DNA of 22,768 nt from a virus: positions 1 to 22,768 of IMG/VR virus record IMGVR_UViG_3300042463_000506; one strand, given 5' to 3'. Below, in pieces: positions 7,897 through 20,148 of the stretch. Under the pieces are notes generated by a model that worked only from the letters and a program-made list of their open reading frames with translations, did not search any database and had not been told where the DNA came from. A program made the position numbers and the translations under genes. Position 1 is the first letter of the stretch; each line of letters begins with the position of its first letter.

Positions 7897-8958
7897 TTAT
7901 TTCTTATTTATAAAGTTTGATAATTTTTCTACTTTCGACATTTTCAACTCAATGCCTGACTTTGGCGCCTCTGCCATTTCTACTTCTTCGACTGTTGCTA
8001 CATCCGCAACTTTTAGTTCTGCAATCATTGAATATATTTCATCAAATTTTGCGTCAACTTCTTCCTTTGTGTACGCCTCAACGGCAACTTCTTCAACTGC
8101 CATTTCAGTTTCAACAACAACTTCTTCTTTTGCCATTTCAACCTCTTCAACAACAACTTCTTCGGTTTTCATTTCCATTTCTTCCGCGCCCATTGATGTG
8201 ATTACGTTATCTGTAATAACTACGGGTGTGTCTTCAATGGTAATTTCTCCGCTAAAGTTTTCGATTGGTGTGAATTCAGTATCTAATACAGCAACGTCTG
8301 CACCTACTTCCAGTACGTCTGCTGTTACGATTACTTCACCACTATCTGTACCGATTGCTTCCGTGAATTGAGCGACAAACTTTCTCTTTTTGCTCATATT
8401 TATTGGTTTAATAATTTCTTGTTTTGTGAATTTTAACGCACTTTCACCGTGAATAGAGAATCCAATTTGCCCACTTTCTACGCAATCAAAATACGCTTGC
8501 TTATCTGTGAACTGCTGAACTGCAAACCATGTTTTTTCAGGGCATTCAATACCGTAAGTAACTAGAGATTTATCAGTCTTTGGCGTTTCAACTAACCATG
8601 TTTCTAGAATGTAGCTTGGTACTCGTTGCGCTTCATCATGTTCTAGGTTAAAAACGTCTTTACCGCTTCTATCTCTTTGGAACTTAACAAACATTTTTTC
8701 AACTATCTCAGGTGTTACGTTTACATAGTACTCCTCACCCGTTTGTTCGTCACGTCGGTATATTTTTGACGGTATCAATACAGGACTTGCTATCCTATAT
8801 TTTAAGTCATCTTTGAAAATCATTTGTTTGATGTCACTCAATGCAATACCCTTAATCATTATCGCGGGGTTTGCGGTGTTTGCAATTTCTAAAACGCCTA
8901 AATACTCGCCGTTTTCAGCGTCGCATTCATCAATTGAAAGATTATAGACTGGTAACAT
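7897..8958 (-). CDS. XkdF-type prohead maturation protease with scaffold-like C-terminal region
   Basis: The 353-residue protein has an N-terminal domain of about 185 residues with FNLEHDEAQRVPSYILETW (candidate catalytic His107) and GQIGFSIHGES (candidate Ser168), the His and Ser blocks of XkdF-like phage serine peptidases that process capsid proteins. Residues 188-353 differ: very acidic and Val/Glu-rich imperfect repeats (EEVVVEEVEM, EEVVVETEM, EEVAVEAY) and a coiled-coil-like end, as in scaffold proteins. An in-frame ATG at 8397 (Met188, MSKKRKFVAQF) preceded by an A-rich stretch could initiate the scaffold part alone. The start at 8958 faces the plus-strand cassette across 45 bp. The third catalytic residue is not identified. 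Confidence 0.8.
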   Translation of the reverse strand: MLPVYNLSIDECDAENGEYLGVLEIANTANPAIMIKGIALSDIKQMIFKDDLKYRIASPVLIPSKIYRRDEQTGEEYYVNVTPEIVEKMFVKFQRDRSGKDVFNLEHDEAQRVPSYILETWLVETPKTDKSLVTYGIECPEKTWFAVQQFTDKQAYFDCVESGQIGFSIHGESALKFTKQEIIKPINMSKKRKFVAQFTEAIGTDSGEVIVTADVLEVGADVAVLDTEFTPIENFSGEITIEDTPVVITDNVITSMGAEEMEMKTEEVVVEEVEMAKEEVVVETEMAVEEVAVEAYTKEEVDAKFDEIYSMIAELKVADVATVEEVEMAEAPKSGIELKMSKVEKLSNFINKK

Positions 8959-8960
8959 GG

Positions 8961-8986
8961 TTGTAATAGGTAAATTCTTATCTTTG
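8961..8986 (+). promoter_or_regulatory. Bacteroidota-type promoter of the plus-strand cassette
   Basis: TTG at 8961-8963 and TATCTTTG at 8979-8986 on the plus strand match the -33 and -7 elements of Bacteroidota promoters, separated by 15 bp (shorter than the usual spacing). The box ends 18 nt before the ATG at 9004, the same distance class (18-23 nt) as the other promoter boxes in the window. It lies in the 45-bp divergent gap between the protease gene and the cassette. Confidence 0.65.
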
Positions 8987-9003
8987 TCCTAAAAGTAAAA
9001 GTT

Positions 9004-9552
9004 ATGGTAAACGTAAAATTAGAGAATGAAACCTTTGAACTTCGCAACGAAGCGAATGAAATAACGCTCAAAGAATTTAACAAAATTTACACTATTCTAA
9101 ACAGCCAAACACTTGGAAAATTAGAGCAATATTGTGAGGTGTTTAAAACGCTTGGACTTCCTGAGGCGATTATTTACGATATGGAAAACGATTCATTTAT
9201 TGAATTGATAAAATCATTTAACGCAATGGAAATTAGCAATGAATTACCAGCTAAAAGCATTGAGATTAAAGGATACAATTATGTTGCTTACACGGGTGAT
9301 GAATTTAAGTTTAAAACAAAGGATTTAATTGAGATTGAAAAATGCGCTAAACGTGGTATTGATAATTTCCCTAGTTATATTCTATCAATTATCTTTAAGC
9401 GTGAAGATTTAAGCGTAAATGAACACTATGAACAATCACATTTAAACCTAAAAGCTAAATTATTTGAGGAAAATGTGAATGCTGACTTTGCGATACCTTA
9501 TATCACCCTAGTTGCTAAACGTACATTGAAAAGTTTAGAGGATGCAAAATAA
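9004..9552 (+). CDS. Putative tail assembly chaperone, N-terminal-type (plus-strand cassette)
   Basis: The 182-residue protein begins MVNVKLENETFELRNEA, continues with EITLKEFNKIYTILN and ends DFAIPYITLVAKRTLKSLED. An N-terminal beta part followed by an all-helical body is typical of G/gp14-like tail assembly chaperones that coat the tape measure before tube polymerisation; the length also fits. No catalytic or membrane feature is present. It is read opposite to every neighbour and has its own promoter at 8961-8986 with an A-rich leader. The next gene's ATG lies within its last codons (10 bp overlap), the paired arrangement expected of chaperone genes. The family assignment is inference from layout; an unrelated morphogenesis pair is possible. 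Confidence 0.55.
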   Translation: MVNVKLENETFELRNEANEITLKEFNKIYTILNSQTLGKLEQYCEVFKTLGLPEAIIYDMENDSFIELIKSFNAMEISNELPAKSIEIKGYNYVAYTGDEFKFKTKDLIEIEKCAKRGIDNFPSYILSIIFKREDLSVNEHYEQSHLNLKAKLFEENVNADFAIPYITLVAKRTLKSLEDAK

Positions 9553-10189
9553 TTGGAACGCCGTAACAGTTGGTAAATTTTTAGAAATCATTGAACTAGA
9601 TTCTCAGGAACTATCACCTACGGAATTTTATTTGGAGCGTATTGCCATTGTCACGGGAAACGATTATTTTGATACTGATGAAAGTGAGTTAAACGGGATT
9701 CTTAAGGAGTTCCGTTGGCTCGATTCATTACCTACAAATAAAACTAAACAATCATTTAGGCACTTATCATTTGGAGCATTTATTGACCTTAATACCTATT
9801 GCACCGATAAAGCACCTATTGAGAATATTGATAAGATTTGTGCAACTATTAAAGGTTACGAAATACTAACCTTTGAATGTGAAAAGATACGCGAAGAACC
9901 AATAACAAAACACTATTCAACTGTTCAATCATTCGTAGAGTATAGAGCTGAAATACTAGAAAAGTATAAAGGGCTTCTTGAAGACGATAATCCAGAACCA
10001 GACGAAGAAGAACCCGAAGAAATACAACCTACAAAACCCGAACAAACCAATACTAAGTGGGGGTGGCAAAGATTAATATACGGGCTTTGTAATGGTGACG
10101 TTACCAAAGTAAAAGACGTTACTAGCTTAGGGCATATTTTAGTACTAAATTGGCTTTCTATGGAGTCTGAATTAAAACTTAAAGGTTAA
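9542..10189 (+). CDS. Putative tail assembly chaperone, second gene of plus-strand cassette
   Basis: The 215-residue protein contains SELNGILKEFRWLDSLPTN (about residues 47-65), an acidic Pro/Glu linker (PEPDEEEPEEIQPTKPE, about 150-166) and a C-terminal KWGWQRLIYGLCNGDVTKVK block followed by a HILVLNWLSMESE helix. A terminal W-x-x-x-I-x-x-L..GD-x-x-K block is one I associate with tail chaperone or tape-measure-binding proteins. The gene overlaps its partner by 11 bp in the +1 frame, so translation is coupled or a frameshift makes a fusion. Its TAA shares the palindrome TTAA with the stop of the convergent minus-strand gene, leaving no room for a terminator. Confidence 0.55.
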   Translation: MQNNWNAVTVGKFLEIIELDSQELSPTEFYLERIAIVTGNDYFDTDESELNGILKEFRWLDSLPTNKTKQSFRHLSFGAFIDLNTYCTDKAPIENIDKICATIKGYEILTFECEKIREEPITKHYSTVQSFVEYRAEILEKYKGLLEDDNPEPDEEEPEEIQPTKPEQTNTKWGWQRLIYGLCNGDVTKVKDVTSLGHILVLNWLSMESELKLKG

Positions 10190-10599
10190 CCCTCTAAATA
10201 AAAGTTATAAAGCCCACCGCCCTCAGGTTGGTTAACGATAATAATATTACCTAATTCAAAAGTGATATTATCAAAATTAATTAGTGGGTATTCGTTTTGT
10301 AGGTAGGCTCTGAAATACTGCCTATATCGTTGTGTCGTATTATTAAATGACCTTGAATTTTTAAACCATGATAATAGTTGCATAGGTATAATGTGATAGC
10401 ACAAATAAGGTTCAGCGTAAATCTTAACCGTGAAAGTATATTGACTAGACATAAACGTACCAAAACTATAATCTATTTCGGCTGTTACGTCAATCGATTT
10501 ATAAAGCGCGCGTGTATCAATCAAAGGAGCGTTTAAGATTATCTCTTTGAATTTACGGGTGTATCTACGGTCAATATCTCTGGGTGTTCTAAATGCCAT
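10186..10599 (-). CDS. Head/tail completion-like protein (gp10-type), copy 2
   Basis: The 137-residue product has IILNAPLIDTRALYKSIDVT near residues 20-39, then strands including YTFTVKIYAEPYLCYHI. The pattern 'helix, D-T-x-x-L-x-x-S-I-x-V, strands, Y-x-x-x' resembles HK97 gp10-type head-tail joining/tail completion proteins. The preceding gene (10600-10950) shows the same pattern, so they may be distant duplicates. It starts immediately after that gene's stop and ends convergently with the plus-strand cassette. The C-terminal PEGGGLYNFYLEG is unassigned. Role inferred from pattern and context. Confidence 0.5.
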   Translation of the reverse strand: MAFRTPRDIDRRYTRKFKEIILNAPLIDTRALYKSIDVTAEIDYSFGTFMSSQYTFTVKIYAEPYLCYHIIPMQLLSWFKNSRSFNNTTQRYRQYFRAYLQNEYPLINFDNITFELGNIIIVNQPEGGGLYNFYLEG

Positions 10600-10950
10600 T
10601 TATACAGTTTTAAATACTTCAAATTCTCTATCTATTTGGTAATCTATCCAAACCCCGTACAACTTATCTAACGCTTTTTGAACGTTATCTTTACCTATTG
10701 TCTTATCGGTAATATTTCGGGGTGTAATATAAATCGTTCCTTTATCCACAAATTTAAAATAAAAAGTTGAACTAATACTTTTGATTGTGAAAACCTCTTT
10801 ACTAAAATCAAAGTCTATTTTTACCTTAGTACTATTTTTCATTAATCCAGTACGCACCGCTTTAACGTCGATAATCGTTTTCTTTATTTCAGCGTTAAGC
10901 GTTCTTGTACACGCGCCTAATTGTGATATAAATTTAGATCGTGAATCCAT
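10600..10950 (-). CDS. Head/tail completion-like protein (gp10-type), copy 1
   Basis: A 116-residue protein follows the tape measure with a one-base stop/start overlap (TAATG). It has an N-terminal helix (TRTLNAEIKKTIIDVKAV), then TGLMKNSTKVKIDF and a strand region ending FYFKFVDKGTIYI. The succession T-G-x-L-x-x-S, beta strands, F-V-D/E-x-G-T is the recognisable core of HK97 gp10-like tail completion proteins that join tail and head. Unlike canonical phages, it lies after the tape measure rather than between capsid and tail tube genes. Confidence is limited by the short, divergent sequence. Confidence 0.55.
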   Translation of the reverse strand: MDSRSKFISQLGACTRTLNAEIKKTIIDVKAVRTGLMKNSTKVKIDFDFSKEVFTIKSISSTFYFKFVDKGTIYITPRNITDKTIGKDNVQKALDKLYGVWIDYQIDREFEVFKTV

Positions 10951-13136
10951 TATAGTGACGCGCTTAATTTCATTGAGTTAACACGCTCCTGTGTGTATGT
11001 CATATCTGTTTCACTTACAACCGCTGTTACTGTAATATTCTGACCGTTTGAATTGTTACCGCTTGCATTTTGATTGTTTGCTGTACCGCCCGAACCGAAC
11101 ATATTAAATACAGGTGTGGCATTTGCTTGTGGCTCACTTACCGATGGATTTGGAGTATTTGGGGCTTGCGTTCCCGCGCCTGAGTTAAATTGTTTACTTG
11201 CAATCACTCCAATTTGTGCTGCACCCGTTAAGCCAGCTAACGCCATTAAAGCGGGATTTGGCATTGCTTTAGTAATTGCTAAAGCTGTATTTATTCCAGC
11301 TGTAACCAAAGCGGCTGCTTTATCAATAGCGAACTTTTTACGCGCAGCTTGTTCTTGGCTTTTAGCGTCTTTTTTTGCAGTTGCTACGGCTAAGTCACCC
11401 AATGCAGTCATTAACCCCGTGCTGGCTTCTGCGTATTGTTGCGCACTTGCTAATCTAGCATCTAAACTTTCTTTTGCTTTTTTCTTATCGTATTCAGTTA
11501 CTTCATCTGTTTTCTTTTGTTGAATTGCTTTAAGTGCGTCTTGGTATGCTTGTTCATCAATTAAGCCTTTATCTTTGGCTTCTTTTAATTTTGTTTCATC
11601 CTCAAGTTGTTTAGCTTCTAAATTAGCGACATACTTCGCTCTTTCGTCAGTATTAAAAGTATTCATCCACGAAGCCAACTCAATAGCGTTAGCCTTTTTC
11701 TTTTCGTCGTATGATAAATCAATAGCATCAAGTTCTGCCTTTTGATTAGCCTCTAAAATCTTTGTGTCTAATCCCGCCTTTTTTGCATCCTCAATAGCTT
11801 TTGTGTACTTGTCATTTACTGCCAATTTTTCTTGGTCAATATCTGAAAGTCTAGCGTTTAGAAAGTCTTTATTAAGTTGGTCAATTATGGCTTGCGCTTC
11901 TTCTGCTTGCTTAATTTCTTCTTGTTTGTACTTAACATTTATTTCATTCTCCGCATTCTTTTGAGCTATTACAATTTGAGAATAGTCTTGTTTGTATTTA
12001 ATAGCTTGGTCTATTTGCGCTTGGTATTTATCGTTGGAAATTTTTATTTCACGGTCTTGAGCTGAAAGTAAATTTAATTCATTTTCTTTTTGAGCATCTT
12101 TATTAAATTGAACCGCTTTATTTATTTCTTGTTGTATTTTTTCTTGGTTCTTTTTTCTTGTTTCACCCGCTTTTTTTGCGTTTTCAGCATCTTTTTTAGC
12201 TTCGTCTTCAGTTGCCTTTTCTTTTGCTTTGGCAGTTACTTTTCTTTGGTATGTAATATCGTCACCCGCTTTTTTCACTAATGCAATTTCCGCATAGGCT
12301 TTTGCTTCAAGTGCCGCTAATTCTTTTTCATCTAATTCATTTTTAATTTTAGCAACTCTAAACTCTTCTATTGCTGCTTCGGCTTTTTTCTGTTGTAAGT
12401 ATTTTAGCCACCACAATTTTTTCATAGTTACTTCTTCGGTACTTTTCCCGTCAAGTTCTGCCATGCGAATTTCTTGGTCGTAACCTTGAACAACTGCTGC
12501 GCTTTTCGCTTCCATTGCTTCGGCTGTTTTTTTAGCTGCGTCGGCTTGTGCTTGTGCAGCGTCTTCAACTGCAAAGTTTGTTAAACCTATCCAATCTAAA
12601 AAGTCTTTAAGTCCTTGTATTAACCAATCCACAACCGCGCCAATTGCTTCAAAGATTTTCTTTAAGATACCCATTTTGTCAAGTAGTTTGACAATTGCAA
12701 CGCCTATCAAAATAATAACCCCAGCGATAAGAAATAAAGGATTTGTTAGTATAGCTTTACCAACAGTCATGAAAGTACTACCTAACTCTTTTACACTTCC
12801 TATTGCATCTTTAAATGTAATTGCTTTAGCCGTCTTTGCAAATAACATTGCACGCTCAGAGGCTTCTTGAAAATCCATGTTACGAAGTGAATCACCAACC
12901 AAACCTAATGAACTAGAAACACGCTCAAATTTAGAACCCGAAGCCATTGCGTTAATTTCCGCGTTGACATCCATCATACGGTCTTTAAGTTGCCCAGCTT
13001 TTTGCTGTAACTCTTCAATATATTTTGGATCTGTTGCTTGTTGCAGTGCAATAGTTGTTTCGCGTAATTCTTGACGGAGCGACTTTATCCCCGTCGTGTT
13101 TGTTCTTATCTCTACGTCTATTACCTTGTCTGCCAT
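10950..13136 (-). CDS. Tail tape measure protein
   Basis: At 728 residues, this protein starts with a domain containing SLRQELRETTIALQQATDPK, carries one strongly hydrophobic stretch (TNPLFLIAGVIILIGVAIVK, about residues 135-155), then some 330 residues of Ala/Lys/Glu/Gln-rich coiled coil (about 220-580), a second apolar region (ALVTAGINTALAITKAMPNP) and a Gly/Asn/Ser-rich tail. This is the usual tape measure layout: the coiled coil sets tail length and the hydrophobic segments enter the host membrane. By the common rule of about 0.15 nm per residue, the tail would be near 110 nm. It overlaps the upstream gene by 16 bp and the downstream gene by 1 bp. No lysozyme domain is visible. Confidence 0.9.
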   Translation of the reverse strand: MADKVIDVEIRTNTTGIKSLRQELRETTIALQQATDPKYIEELQQKAGQLKDRMMDVNAEINAMASGSKFERVSSSLGLVGDSLRNMDFQEASERAMLFAKTAKAITFKDAIGSVKELGSTFMTVGKAILTNPLFLIAGVIILIGVAIVKLLDKMGILKKIFEAIGAVVDWLIQGLKDFLDWIGLTNFAVEDAAQAQADAAKKTAEAMEAKSAAVVQGYDQEIRMAELDGKSTEEVTMKKLWWLKYLQQKKAEAAIEEFRVAKIKNELDEKELAALEAKAYAEIALVKKAGDDITYQRKVTAKAKEKATEDEAKKDAENAKKAGETRKKNQEKIQQEINKAVQFNKDAQKENELNLLSAQDREIKISNDKYQAQIDQAIKYKQDYSQIVIAQKNAENEINVKYKQEEIKQAEEAQAIIDQLNKDFLNARLSDIDQEKLAVNDKYTKAIEDAKKAGLDTKILEANQKAELDAIDLSYDEKKKANAIELASWMNTFNTDERAKYVANLEAKQLEDETKLKEAKDKGLIDEQAYQDALKAIQQKKTDEVTEYDKKKAKESLDARLASAQQYAEASTGLMTALGDLAVATAKKDAKSQEQAARKKFAIDKAAALVTAGINTALAITKAMPNPALMALAGLTGAAQIGVIASKQFNSGAGTQAPNTPNPSVSEPQANATPVFNMFGSGGTANNQNASGNNSNGQNITVTAVVSETDMTYTQERVNSMKLSASL

Positions 13137-18955: not shown

Positions 18956-19254
18956 TACGCTGGTATTTGTTCGATAAACGCTTTCTTAGATGTCGCTTTG
19001 ATATTCGGGAAACGTTCACGTAATTCGTTCAATGTGAAATCTGCGTAACTGTCAGCGATTAACCCCTCGTTTTCGTTTGACTGAGTATCATTGATGACGC
19101 TCTGTGATGTCTCCTCCTCAAACATAAATGCAAATTCTTTGATGTTTGCCCAGTGATTAGGGTTTACCGTTGCGGTGTTAATTGTTATTTTACCTACCGA
19201 TGGTGAGTTAACTGTTACCGTACAGTCTTTATACTCTTCTTTAAATTTTGCCAT
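18955..19254 (-). CDS. Hypothetical protein with SAP/HeH-like C-terminus
   Basis: A 99-residue protein lies between the sigma-like gene and terS. The N-terminal half is beta-like (DCTVTVNSPSVGKITINTAT) with NPNHWANIKEFAFMF; a low-complexity polar stretch follows; the C-terminus LNELRERFPNIKATSKKAFI looks like a small HeH/SAP-type helix-extended-helix fold, seen in phage proteins that bind nucleic acids or partner proteins. It overlaps the sigma-like gene by 14 bp and terS by 1 bp, so it is made with them and could assist packaging. No firm family is claimed. Confidence 0.6.
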   Translation of the reverse strand: MAKFKEEYKDCTVTVNSPSVGKITINTATVNPNHWANIKEFAFMFEEETSQSVINDTQSNENEGLIADSYADFTLNELRERFPNIKATSKKAFIEQIPA

Positions 19255-19765
19255 GATTCTTAATTTTAAATTTTAACTCGTTTATTATGTCGTTTGCTGT
19301 TTGCTTGCTTAGATTAAAGTAACTTGCAAATTCTCTTACTGTTCTTTTTCTCTTGTAAAAATACGCATCAAAAATGATTTTATCAAACTGATCCGTTAAC
19401 GCTATTTTGTAACTTTCAATCTGTGCCTTTTGGCTGTTTCTTTTTATGTCGTGTTCTATCTCTAATAGTATTTCGTTATACTCTTGTCTTTCTATTCCTA
19501 TCAGTTCCGTTGTACGTTCTTTGAATAGGTAATTAACTGAGCTGTTTTGTTTGCTTACTTCTAGGTTTATTTTGCTTATAAAGTACGATTGCAGTTGTCC
19601 GATTGTAGTAATTCTATCTTTGATTTTTAGAATGTAAATGTATGCTTCGGATATTACTAACTCAGGTTCGTAGTTTCTTTTTTTTCGTCGCACAAAGTCA
19701 GTCGCTACCTTTTGAAGTAGTGTATAATTTTCATTTATGTAGGTATCAATTTGAGATTTGTTCAT
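19241..19765 (-). CDS. Sigma-70-like / helix-turn-helix transcription factor
   Basis: From ATG at 19765 the product has 174 residues. The N-terminal half (YTLLQKVATDFVRRKKRNYE, VISEAYIYILKIKDRI, IGQLQSYFISKINLEVS) resembles region 2 of small sigma factors. The C-terminus RTVREFASYFNLSKQTANDI followed by INELKFKIKN is a helix-turn-helix like region 4, for a -33-type element. A GTG at 19786 would extend it by seven residues but deepen the overlap with the upstream gene, so 19765 is chosen. Sitting immediately before the terminase genes, it is a good candidate activator of late transcription. It lacks the conserved -10-binding aromatic residues I could check with confidence, so it may be only sigma-like. 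Confidence 0.6.
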   Translation of the reverse strand: MNKSQIDTYINENYTLLQKVATDFVRRKKRNYEPELVISEAYIYILKIKDRITTIGQLQSYFISKINLEVSKQNSSVNYLFKERTTELIGIERQEYNEILLEIEHDIKRNSQKAQIESYKIALTDQFDKIIFDAYFYKRKRTVREFASYFNLSKQTANDIINELKFKIKNHGKI

Positions 19766-19937
19766 ACCATTCGTTAAATTCGACACGCTTCATTTTACGT
19801 CTAGTCTTTGCACACATACAGTAGTAAACCGCTTCGCTATTATACGCCAAAAAGATACGCTGACAGGTCAACATATCCTTTTTTGAATCACTTGGGTGCG
19901 TCTTCCAAGTATCAATTTCGCTCTGCAATAGAATCAT
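19746..19937 (-). CDS. Small hypothetical protein, first gene of the terminase transcript
   Basis: The 63-residue product starts MILLQSEIDTWKTHPSDSKK, continues TCQRIFLAYNSEAVYYCMC and ends RVEFNEWYEQISN. Three Cys (CQR and CMC) could bind metal or be incidental. It resembles small accessory proteins of Bacteroidota phages, but I cannot name a family. The ATG at 19937 lies 22 nt after the G of a TATCTTTG promoter box located within the preceding gene; it overlaps that gene by 26 bp and the sigma-like gene by 20 bp, so it may translationally couple the latter. Confidence 0.6.
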   Translation of the reverse strand: MILLQSEIDTWKTHPSDSKKDMLTCQRIFLAYNSEAVYYCMCAKTRRKMKRVEFNEWYEQISN

Positions 19938-20148
19938 ATAAATAAGCCGTTAACGATGCAAAGATAGCATAATAAACATTCCAAGTAATAATTAGCACGC
20001 TCCAAAAAGATAGGCATTTAAAACAAGTCAGAATGTCTACTACTTTCTCTAGACGTTTAATTAAGTATAAACGTTCCAATCTGTCACGGATTGGTTCAAA
20101 ATGCGTAATAAACCACGCTATTAAGAATATTTTTATAGATAAAATCAT
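19912..20148 (-). CDS. Membrane protein with CxxCxxFW motif
   Basis: From ATG at 20148 (the upstream TTG is rejected) the product has 78 residues: an N-terminal membrane segment (ILSIKIFLIAWFITHF, 2-17), a basic amphipathic linker, then DILTCFKCLSFWSVLIITW, where Cys42 and Cys45 precede a second membrane segment (about 47-70). The C-x-x-C-x-x-FW motif at a membrane boundary is one I have met in small proteins of Bacteroidota phages; its function is not established to my knowledge. The promoter of the terminase operon lies within its 3' end. It could be a holin-like or host-interaction protein. Confidence 0.65.
   Translation of the reverse strand: MILSIKIFLIAWFITHFEPIRDRLERLYLIKRLEKVVDILTCFKCLSFWSVLIITWNVYYAIFASLTAYLYDSIAERN
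19959..19966 (-). promoter_or_regulatory. -7 promoter box TATCTTTG for the sigma/terminase operon
   Basis: Minus strand TATCTTTGC, with TTG 15 bp upstream (same spacing as the plus-strand cassette promoter). The box ends 22 nt before the ATG at 19937. It lies inside the coding region of the CxxCxxFW membrane protein. It is the only good promoter candidate seen upstream of the terminase and tail genes, so it may be the main late promoter. Confidence 0.6.

Follow-up and report, generated by a model that had tools for sequence, protein, structure and literature searches.

The DNA analysed here, referred to below as the window, is a 22.8-kb IMG/VR virus record taken at its full length of 22,768 nucleotides. 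It presumably derives from a freshwater, Bacteroidota-type phage, the host being suggested by the promoter type and by Flavobacteriia phages with a common terminase. On the minus strand, the gene order begins with recombination/early genes, a sigma/HTH-like gene, TerS, TerL, the tail genes, the tape measure gene and two small neck/tail genes; beyond a pair of plus-strand genes, it continues with a 353-aa protein, the capsid protein, a probable tail-tube protein, the portal and the lysis genes. The initial annotation described this pair as two overlapping plus-strand genes in an otherwise minus-strand window, and the reading frames bear this out: the ORFs at 9004-9552 and 9542-10189, here genes A and B, overlap by 11 nt and are the sole plus-strand genes among the credible genes of the window, all further plus-strand ORFs lying antisense within minus-strand genes. 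The features of the locus are as follows.

7897..8958, minus strand: divergent neighbour g353 (353 aa), upstream of the capsid gene; probable protease/scaffold, judged from position
8979..8986, plus strand: TATCTTTG, Bacteroidota -7 promoter element of the cassette (motif match and positional conservation in relatives)
9004..9552, plus strand: gene A (182 aa), short tail-assembly-chaperone form, TAC-N (AlphaFold, BFVD, HHalign, dN/dS)
9542..10189, plus strand: gene B (215 aa), long form, TAC-NC (HHalign to the frameshift product)
9542..9552, plus strand: A/B overlap of 11 nt, the start of B lying within the end of A in the +1 (= -2) frame
10186..10189, both strands: TTAA, where the stop codons of plus-strand B and the minus-strand 137-aa gene meet and overlap; terminator absent
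10186..10599, minus strand: convergent neighbour g137 (137 aa); probable tail-completion or neck protein, judged from position
10950..13136, minus strand: tape measure protein (TMP; PHROG tape measure match, E=1.7e-9)
19959..19966, minus strand: TATCTTTG with a TTG 15 nt upstream; candidate late-operon promoter, preceding the sigma-like gene ahead of the terminase genes

The A-B cassette is two genes away from the TMP gene and on the opposite strand, and its G+C content is slightly below that of its neighbours. At the place equivalent to g353, phage TCUEAP1 has an annotated protease.

The two products are related to each other. The N-domains of A and B are homologous (HHalign 93%, E=3.4e-7, 141 columns), and beyond this domain B carries an acidic linker (residues about 149-169, pLDDT <50) and then a helical C-domain that contains a W-x-W motif. 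In siphophages, G and G-T of lambda and their equivalents are the TAC-N and TAC-NC forms, produced via a -1 programmed frameshift. A and B likewise are two forms with a common N-domain, the long one with a C-terminal extension. As for location, they may be counted as lying in or beside the tail module, the pair standing between the tail and head blocks. The layout of tail assembly chaperones (TACs) pairs a short form with a frameshifted long one (PMC12846349), and the -1 frameshift is common in TACs and absent from some genomes, so it is no required feature (PMC10885494). Pfam, PHROG and PDB sequence searches of A and B gave no significant family, and Pfam Phage_TAC_7 matched some B homologues below the cut-off (18.1 vs 25 bits, best E=0.0027). 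The AlphaFold model of A (pLDDT 88) matched 32 BFVD models at E<=1e-3, including Nonlabens phage P12024S gp38 and a Flavobacterium phage 6H protein, and a weaker match (E=5.9e-3) is named 'tail assembly chaperone'. The initial annotation had proposed comparing both structures with known chaperones; on this point the result was negative, since Foldseek against solved structures (PDB) returned nothing for the model of A or that of B. Both genes are under purifying selection, with dN/dS of 0.03-0.17 for A and mostly 0.03-0.2 for A and B, comparable to the capsid gene and g353.

The distant homologues of A/B are the relatives of PHROG 32199, such as P12024S gp38/39, which are annotated as being of unknown function. 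This homology is seen only by profile-profile comparison and iterated HMM, and a single-sequence PHROG scan of the window proteins did not reach PHROG 32199. In P12024S, a T9 run at gp38 leads into a -1-frame C-domain that shares the W-x-W motif of B. T-TTT-TTT stands in slip phase at the equivalent place in 63/63 contigs encoding gp38 relatives, compared with a background of 4/7407 positions for in-phase TTTTTT, and these contigs are not independent, because they are related and have phenylalanine codons in common by homology. The -1 frame past the T-run encodes the W-x-W domain in 61 of the 63, the remaining two having just 20-30 codons, and the 41 distinct C-peptides show real divergence. 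The loci of PHROG 32199 with this signature are L098:23136-23830 and L267-L329. Aligned with B, the predicted frameshift product matches from end to end and through the junction (HHalign 99.7%, E=3e-25, 221 columns); the C-domains of B and of the PHROG 32199 kin alone reach 97.3% (E=1.8e-11), and A matches the N part of the frameshifting TACs at 94.4% (E=9.4e-8). Controls against the same HHalign target (capsid, g353 and g137) reach <=0.2%.

A co-directed outgroup, L076 (9989-10911), has a single B-like gene that contains a T9 run and encodes the C-domain in its -1 frame, and its score against the B profile rises from 63 bits to 92 bits once the -1 frame past the T9 run is joined. This gene is a sequence intermediate. 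No close kin of L076 were found, and its putative frameshift therefore rests on the T-run as in the PHROG 32199 kin. In the window itself the long form does not originate by a -1 frameshift: B begins at a start codon of its own, in the +1/-2 frame, and an in-phase TTTTTT is kept in the 3' half of none of the B genes.

Because the homologues carry a conserved -1 frameshift signature and A/B show the N / N+C architecture of the two isoforms, the tail-chaperone identity of the pair, which the initial annotation had proposed from gene layout, is well supported, and PHROG 32199 is probably a tail assembly chaperone family and can be annotated so. The likeness to the lambda-type frameshift thus lies in the kin of A/B, where a conserved -1 slippery site precedes the C-domain. 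The window differs from lambda in that A and B are two overlapping genes, on the strand opposite to the TMP gene, with a promoter of their own and not adjoining the TMP gene. It also differs from P12024S, in which gp38-gp39 is one frameshift-signature gene directly after TerL and co-directed with the tail genes, as the gene of the PHROG 32199 kin lies between TerL and the tail genes in the same direction, whereas TerL, the g479/g933-like tail genes, the capsid and the portal of P12024S also match the window. A further comparison is offered by T4, with genes 26 and 51 as its chaperone genes; the T4 record places gene 26 on the strand opposite to 51-27-28-29. According to Vladimirov et al. 2022, as cited in PMC10885494, the chaperone genes of T4-like phages use a mechanism other than frameshifting. 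T4-like phages and A/B are thus alike in having two chaperone forms without a frameshift, but the two T4 genes diverge whereas A and B overlap, and no homology of A or B to T4 gp26 or gp51 was detectable.

Relatives were gathered by A, TerL, B and, independently of the cassette, the capsid protein. The first set consists of deduplicated loci with A and the capsid gene, found mainly by A, and the second of capsid-found contigs; some contigs are common to both, and nearly all relatives are metagenomic contigs. In the first set, A is reversed relative to the capsid gene in 65 loci and co-directed in three members (L066, L094 and L137) as well as two distant outgroups. Among the 80 capsid-found contigs, 65 reach far enough, and all of these (65/65) have A in the reversed orientation; the other 15 end too early. 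The comparison of orientation suggested in the initial annotation thus gave a clear answer, the reversed pair being kept throughout both sets apart from the few co-directed loci. Neither A, B nor related B proteins gave a tblastn match among isolated phages, and no isolate with a reversed cassette was found in the phage collection; a scan of genome contigs with A gave no relative. In L094 and L066, A and B directly follow the tape measure gene and are co-directed with it, whereas the chaperone genes of classical phages precede the tape measure gene, a point against the chaperone reading.

The trees place these co-directed members differently. In the capsid tree, L137 is nested inside the reversed clade, and in the A/B tree L066/L094 group with the window clade. 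A clean count of inversions was abandoned for this reason; the trees require at least two changes of orientation, with no single polarity emerging from the capsid and A/B trees. Contig 3300020044_004708 (L008, L014, L015 and L068), in which two mirror-image half genomes are joined near g353 and the cassette promoter, is probably a chimeric assembly and was left out of the tree.

The initial annotation had also assigned the pair a TTG-type promoter of its own in the 45-bp divergent gap between the ATG of the minus-strand neighbour (8958) and A. The gap contains TATCTTTG, 25 nt upstream of A, and a TTG at 8961-8963, 15 nt from TATCTTTG; because this spacing is just 15 nt, the -33 part is weak and the promoter looks non-ideal. 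Transcript data from Flavobacterium johnsoniae give TAHHTTTG as the -7 consensus, with transcription beginning 4-5 nt further downstream, and show little conservation of the -33 element (PMC6847099). The cassette element matches this Bacteroidota primary-sigma consensus at a conserved position, and from the start distance in F. johnsoniae the cassette transcript is predicted to begin near 8991, with a leader of about 12 nt. A sigma-70 style promoter scan is uninformative for Bacteroidota.

The mere presence of TAnnTTTG says little, as its count on the plus strand of the window (25 vs 19 expected) is barely above chance; its position before A, on the other hand, is far beyond chance. A perfect TAnnTTTG lies 14-45 nt before A in 60/65 loci of the set found mainly by A (36/41 distinct upstreams) and in 63/65 capsid-found contigs (43/45 distinct upstreams), and several relatives without a perfect match are one base off. 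At the same distance, the motif occurs 0-1 times per gene before g353, MCP, the tail-tube gene (MTP), portal, g124, g167, g263, g137 and TMP, and at most once per gene before g933, g479 and TerL. The exceptions in the first relative set are g116 (5/19) and B itself (4/64), the g116 homologues (e.g. L096 in G003) representing the sole late gene besides A with several upstream TAnnTTTG. In five further long contigs, TAnnTTTG precedes early genes, the gene preceding the sigma-like gene, and A, and is rare within the structural operon. In one of them, that of the close relative L003, it precedes an inserted first gene, a 106-aa ORF (9677-9997) between the intact cassette promoter and A. From this distribution, the cassette appears to bear an early/housekeeping promoter class in a block largely without it. 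The octamer is TATCTTTG in the window clade and mostly TATATTTG elsewhere, which is consistent with repeated compensation. None of the three co-directed cassettes (L066, L094 and L137) has TAnnTTTG at 14-45 nt before A; L094 nevertheless carries TTG-N19-TAACTTTG at 47 nt before A, showing that inversion and an own promoter do not always go together. In sum, the proposed promoter in the divergent gap gained comparative support through its -7 element, its TTG part being weak. The conserved reversal and the promoter element likewise favour the earlier view that the cassette is separate from the tape measure transcript.

An independent transcription unit with its own promoter within late genes, as the sequence evidence indicates here, is also what morons look like, and A and B might accordingly be accessory genes with no part in tail assembly, serving instead in host takeover, exclusion or defence. 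The opposite strand and the slightly lower G+C would fit such an insert, as would the extra genes that joined the cassette in some lineages (L003, L022). Unlike morons, however, A and B are core genes, the pair occurring in 65/65 usable contigs that were collected independently of it. They are also morphogenetic by homology, their homologues lying between terminase and tail genes with the TAC frameshift signature, and they are under purifying selection akin to that of the capsid gene; moreover, a search of 8700-10700 on both strands turned up no terminator-like site. This reading is largely refuted and very unlikely. A phase-variable cassette, inverted back and forth between the co-directed and the reversed state, could account for the occurrence of both orientations in the family and for the position of L137 inside the reversed clade of the capsid tree. 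Orientation is nevertheless uniform in the 65 loci and the 65 contigs, and no near-perfect inverted repeats flank A-B. As the promoter elements vary from lineage to lineage and L137 is without them, the orientation states look fixed, and such switching is extremely improbable.

At the A/B junction, every locus with adjoining genes shows an overlap of 2 mod 3 in length, and the overlap probably serves translational coupling. Since the start of B within the end of A, in the +1 frame, is kept wherever the genes adjoin, termination-reinitiation may keep B scarcer than A. At the other end of the cassette, the stop codons of B and its convergent neighbour have TTAA in common in many lineages, an overlap of 4 nt, and overlap by up to 25 nt in others; elsewhere, the convergent gap is 240-415 nt, with extra genes there in some lineages. 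Because the stop codons overlap and no terminator was found, the plus and minus transcripts probably overlap in the window, and because the capsid block is almost without TAnnTTTG of its own, late transcripts probably cross the cassette.

The initial annotation had suggested antisense RNA as a possible means of keeping chaperone levels low or early. This arrangement allows an antisense timer to be envisaged, in which host polymerase would transcribe A/B early and late minus-strand transcription would then shut the cassette through collision and antisense RNA, so that the chaperone dose would be early and limited. The stop-codon overlap, the missing terminator, the probable crossing by late transcripts and the very strongly conserved orientation all speak for it. 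Against it, the conserved overlap may reflect compact genomes, three relatives manage with a co-directed arrangement, and the convergent gap is wide or filled with genes in some lineages. We regard such a timer as unlikely. The broader proposal that translational (frameshift) control of the chaperone ratio was swapped for transcriptional control, with a host promoter and a forced sense-antisense overlap giving an early, limited dose and a late shut-off, is similarly doubtful. By sequence comparison, inversion with a compensating promoter would explain the data equally well as antisense control does.

Based on the results presented above, A and B are best read as the two forms of a tail chaperone encoded by two genes, reversed and under a host-type promoter of their own, in place of the one frameshifting gene of the distant relatives; we put the probability of this reading at about 0.8. 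It is drawn from comparisons of sequence, namely homology, N / N+C architecture, conserved reversal, the conserved promoter element and the frameshift signature of the homologues. Under the two-gene chaperone reading, host RNA polymerase would transcribe A-B from the TAnnTTTG promoter, B would be translated by coupling to A and hence be scarcer, and termination-reinitiation at the overlap would replace the frameshift as ratio control. The chaperone supply would thereby be uncoupled from the late transcript. The inversion may have taken the cassette out of late transcription, for which the promoter would compensate. Judging from the outgroups, a single frameshifting gene close to TerL looks like the ancestral state, and since the co-directed L066/L094 are already two-gene, the split into A and B appears to precede or accompany the relocation.

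Tail chaperones are a textbook example of two protein forms whose ratio is set by a ribosomal frameshift. The large A/B group suggests that this control can be dropped, while distant relatives keep a perfectly conserved slippery site, and it offers a way to test whether tail assembly depends on the proportion of the two forms or on when they are supplied. The comparison also provides a likely function for PHROG 32199 and its reversed relatives, an unannotated, widespread family that a simple rule allows one to recognise. We found no report in the open-access literature of a reversed tail-chaperone pair or of a PHROG 32199 frameshift, which does not in itself prove novelty.

Several further observations concern the surroundings of the cassette. 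Directly ahead of TerS lies a weakly sigma/HTH-like protein, g181 (19241-19786, minus strand), with TAnnTTTG upstream of the gene preceding it, and an annotated sigma-70 region 2 protein occupies a similar place in P12024S. This protein is a candidate late-transcription regulator; a phage-specific sigma factor driving the late operon was considered and set aside, g181 being just weakly sigma- or HTH-like. In L022, a homologue of the gene at 470-835 of the window lies between A and B (11355-11720), and a similar A-B gap is seen in L156 and L157; the cassette therefore appears to take in gene kinds otherwise outside the structural block. At the convergent end, L025/L093 (G005) have probable glycosyltransferase-like genes between the homologue of the 137-aa gene and B. 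Finally, the g353 homologue of L040 (19662-21047) is about 100 aa longer and carries a seeming Nudix-like insert (GGKIEEGES motif), as judged by eye.
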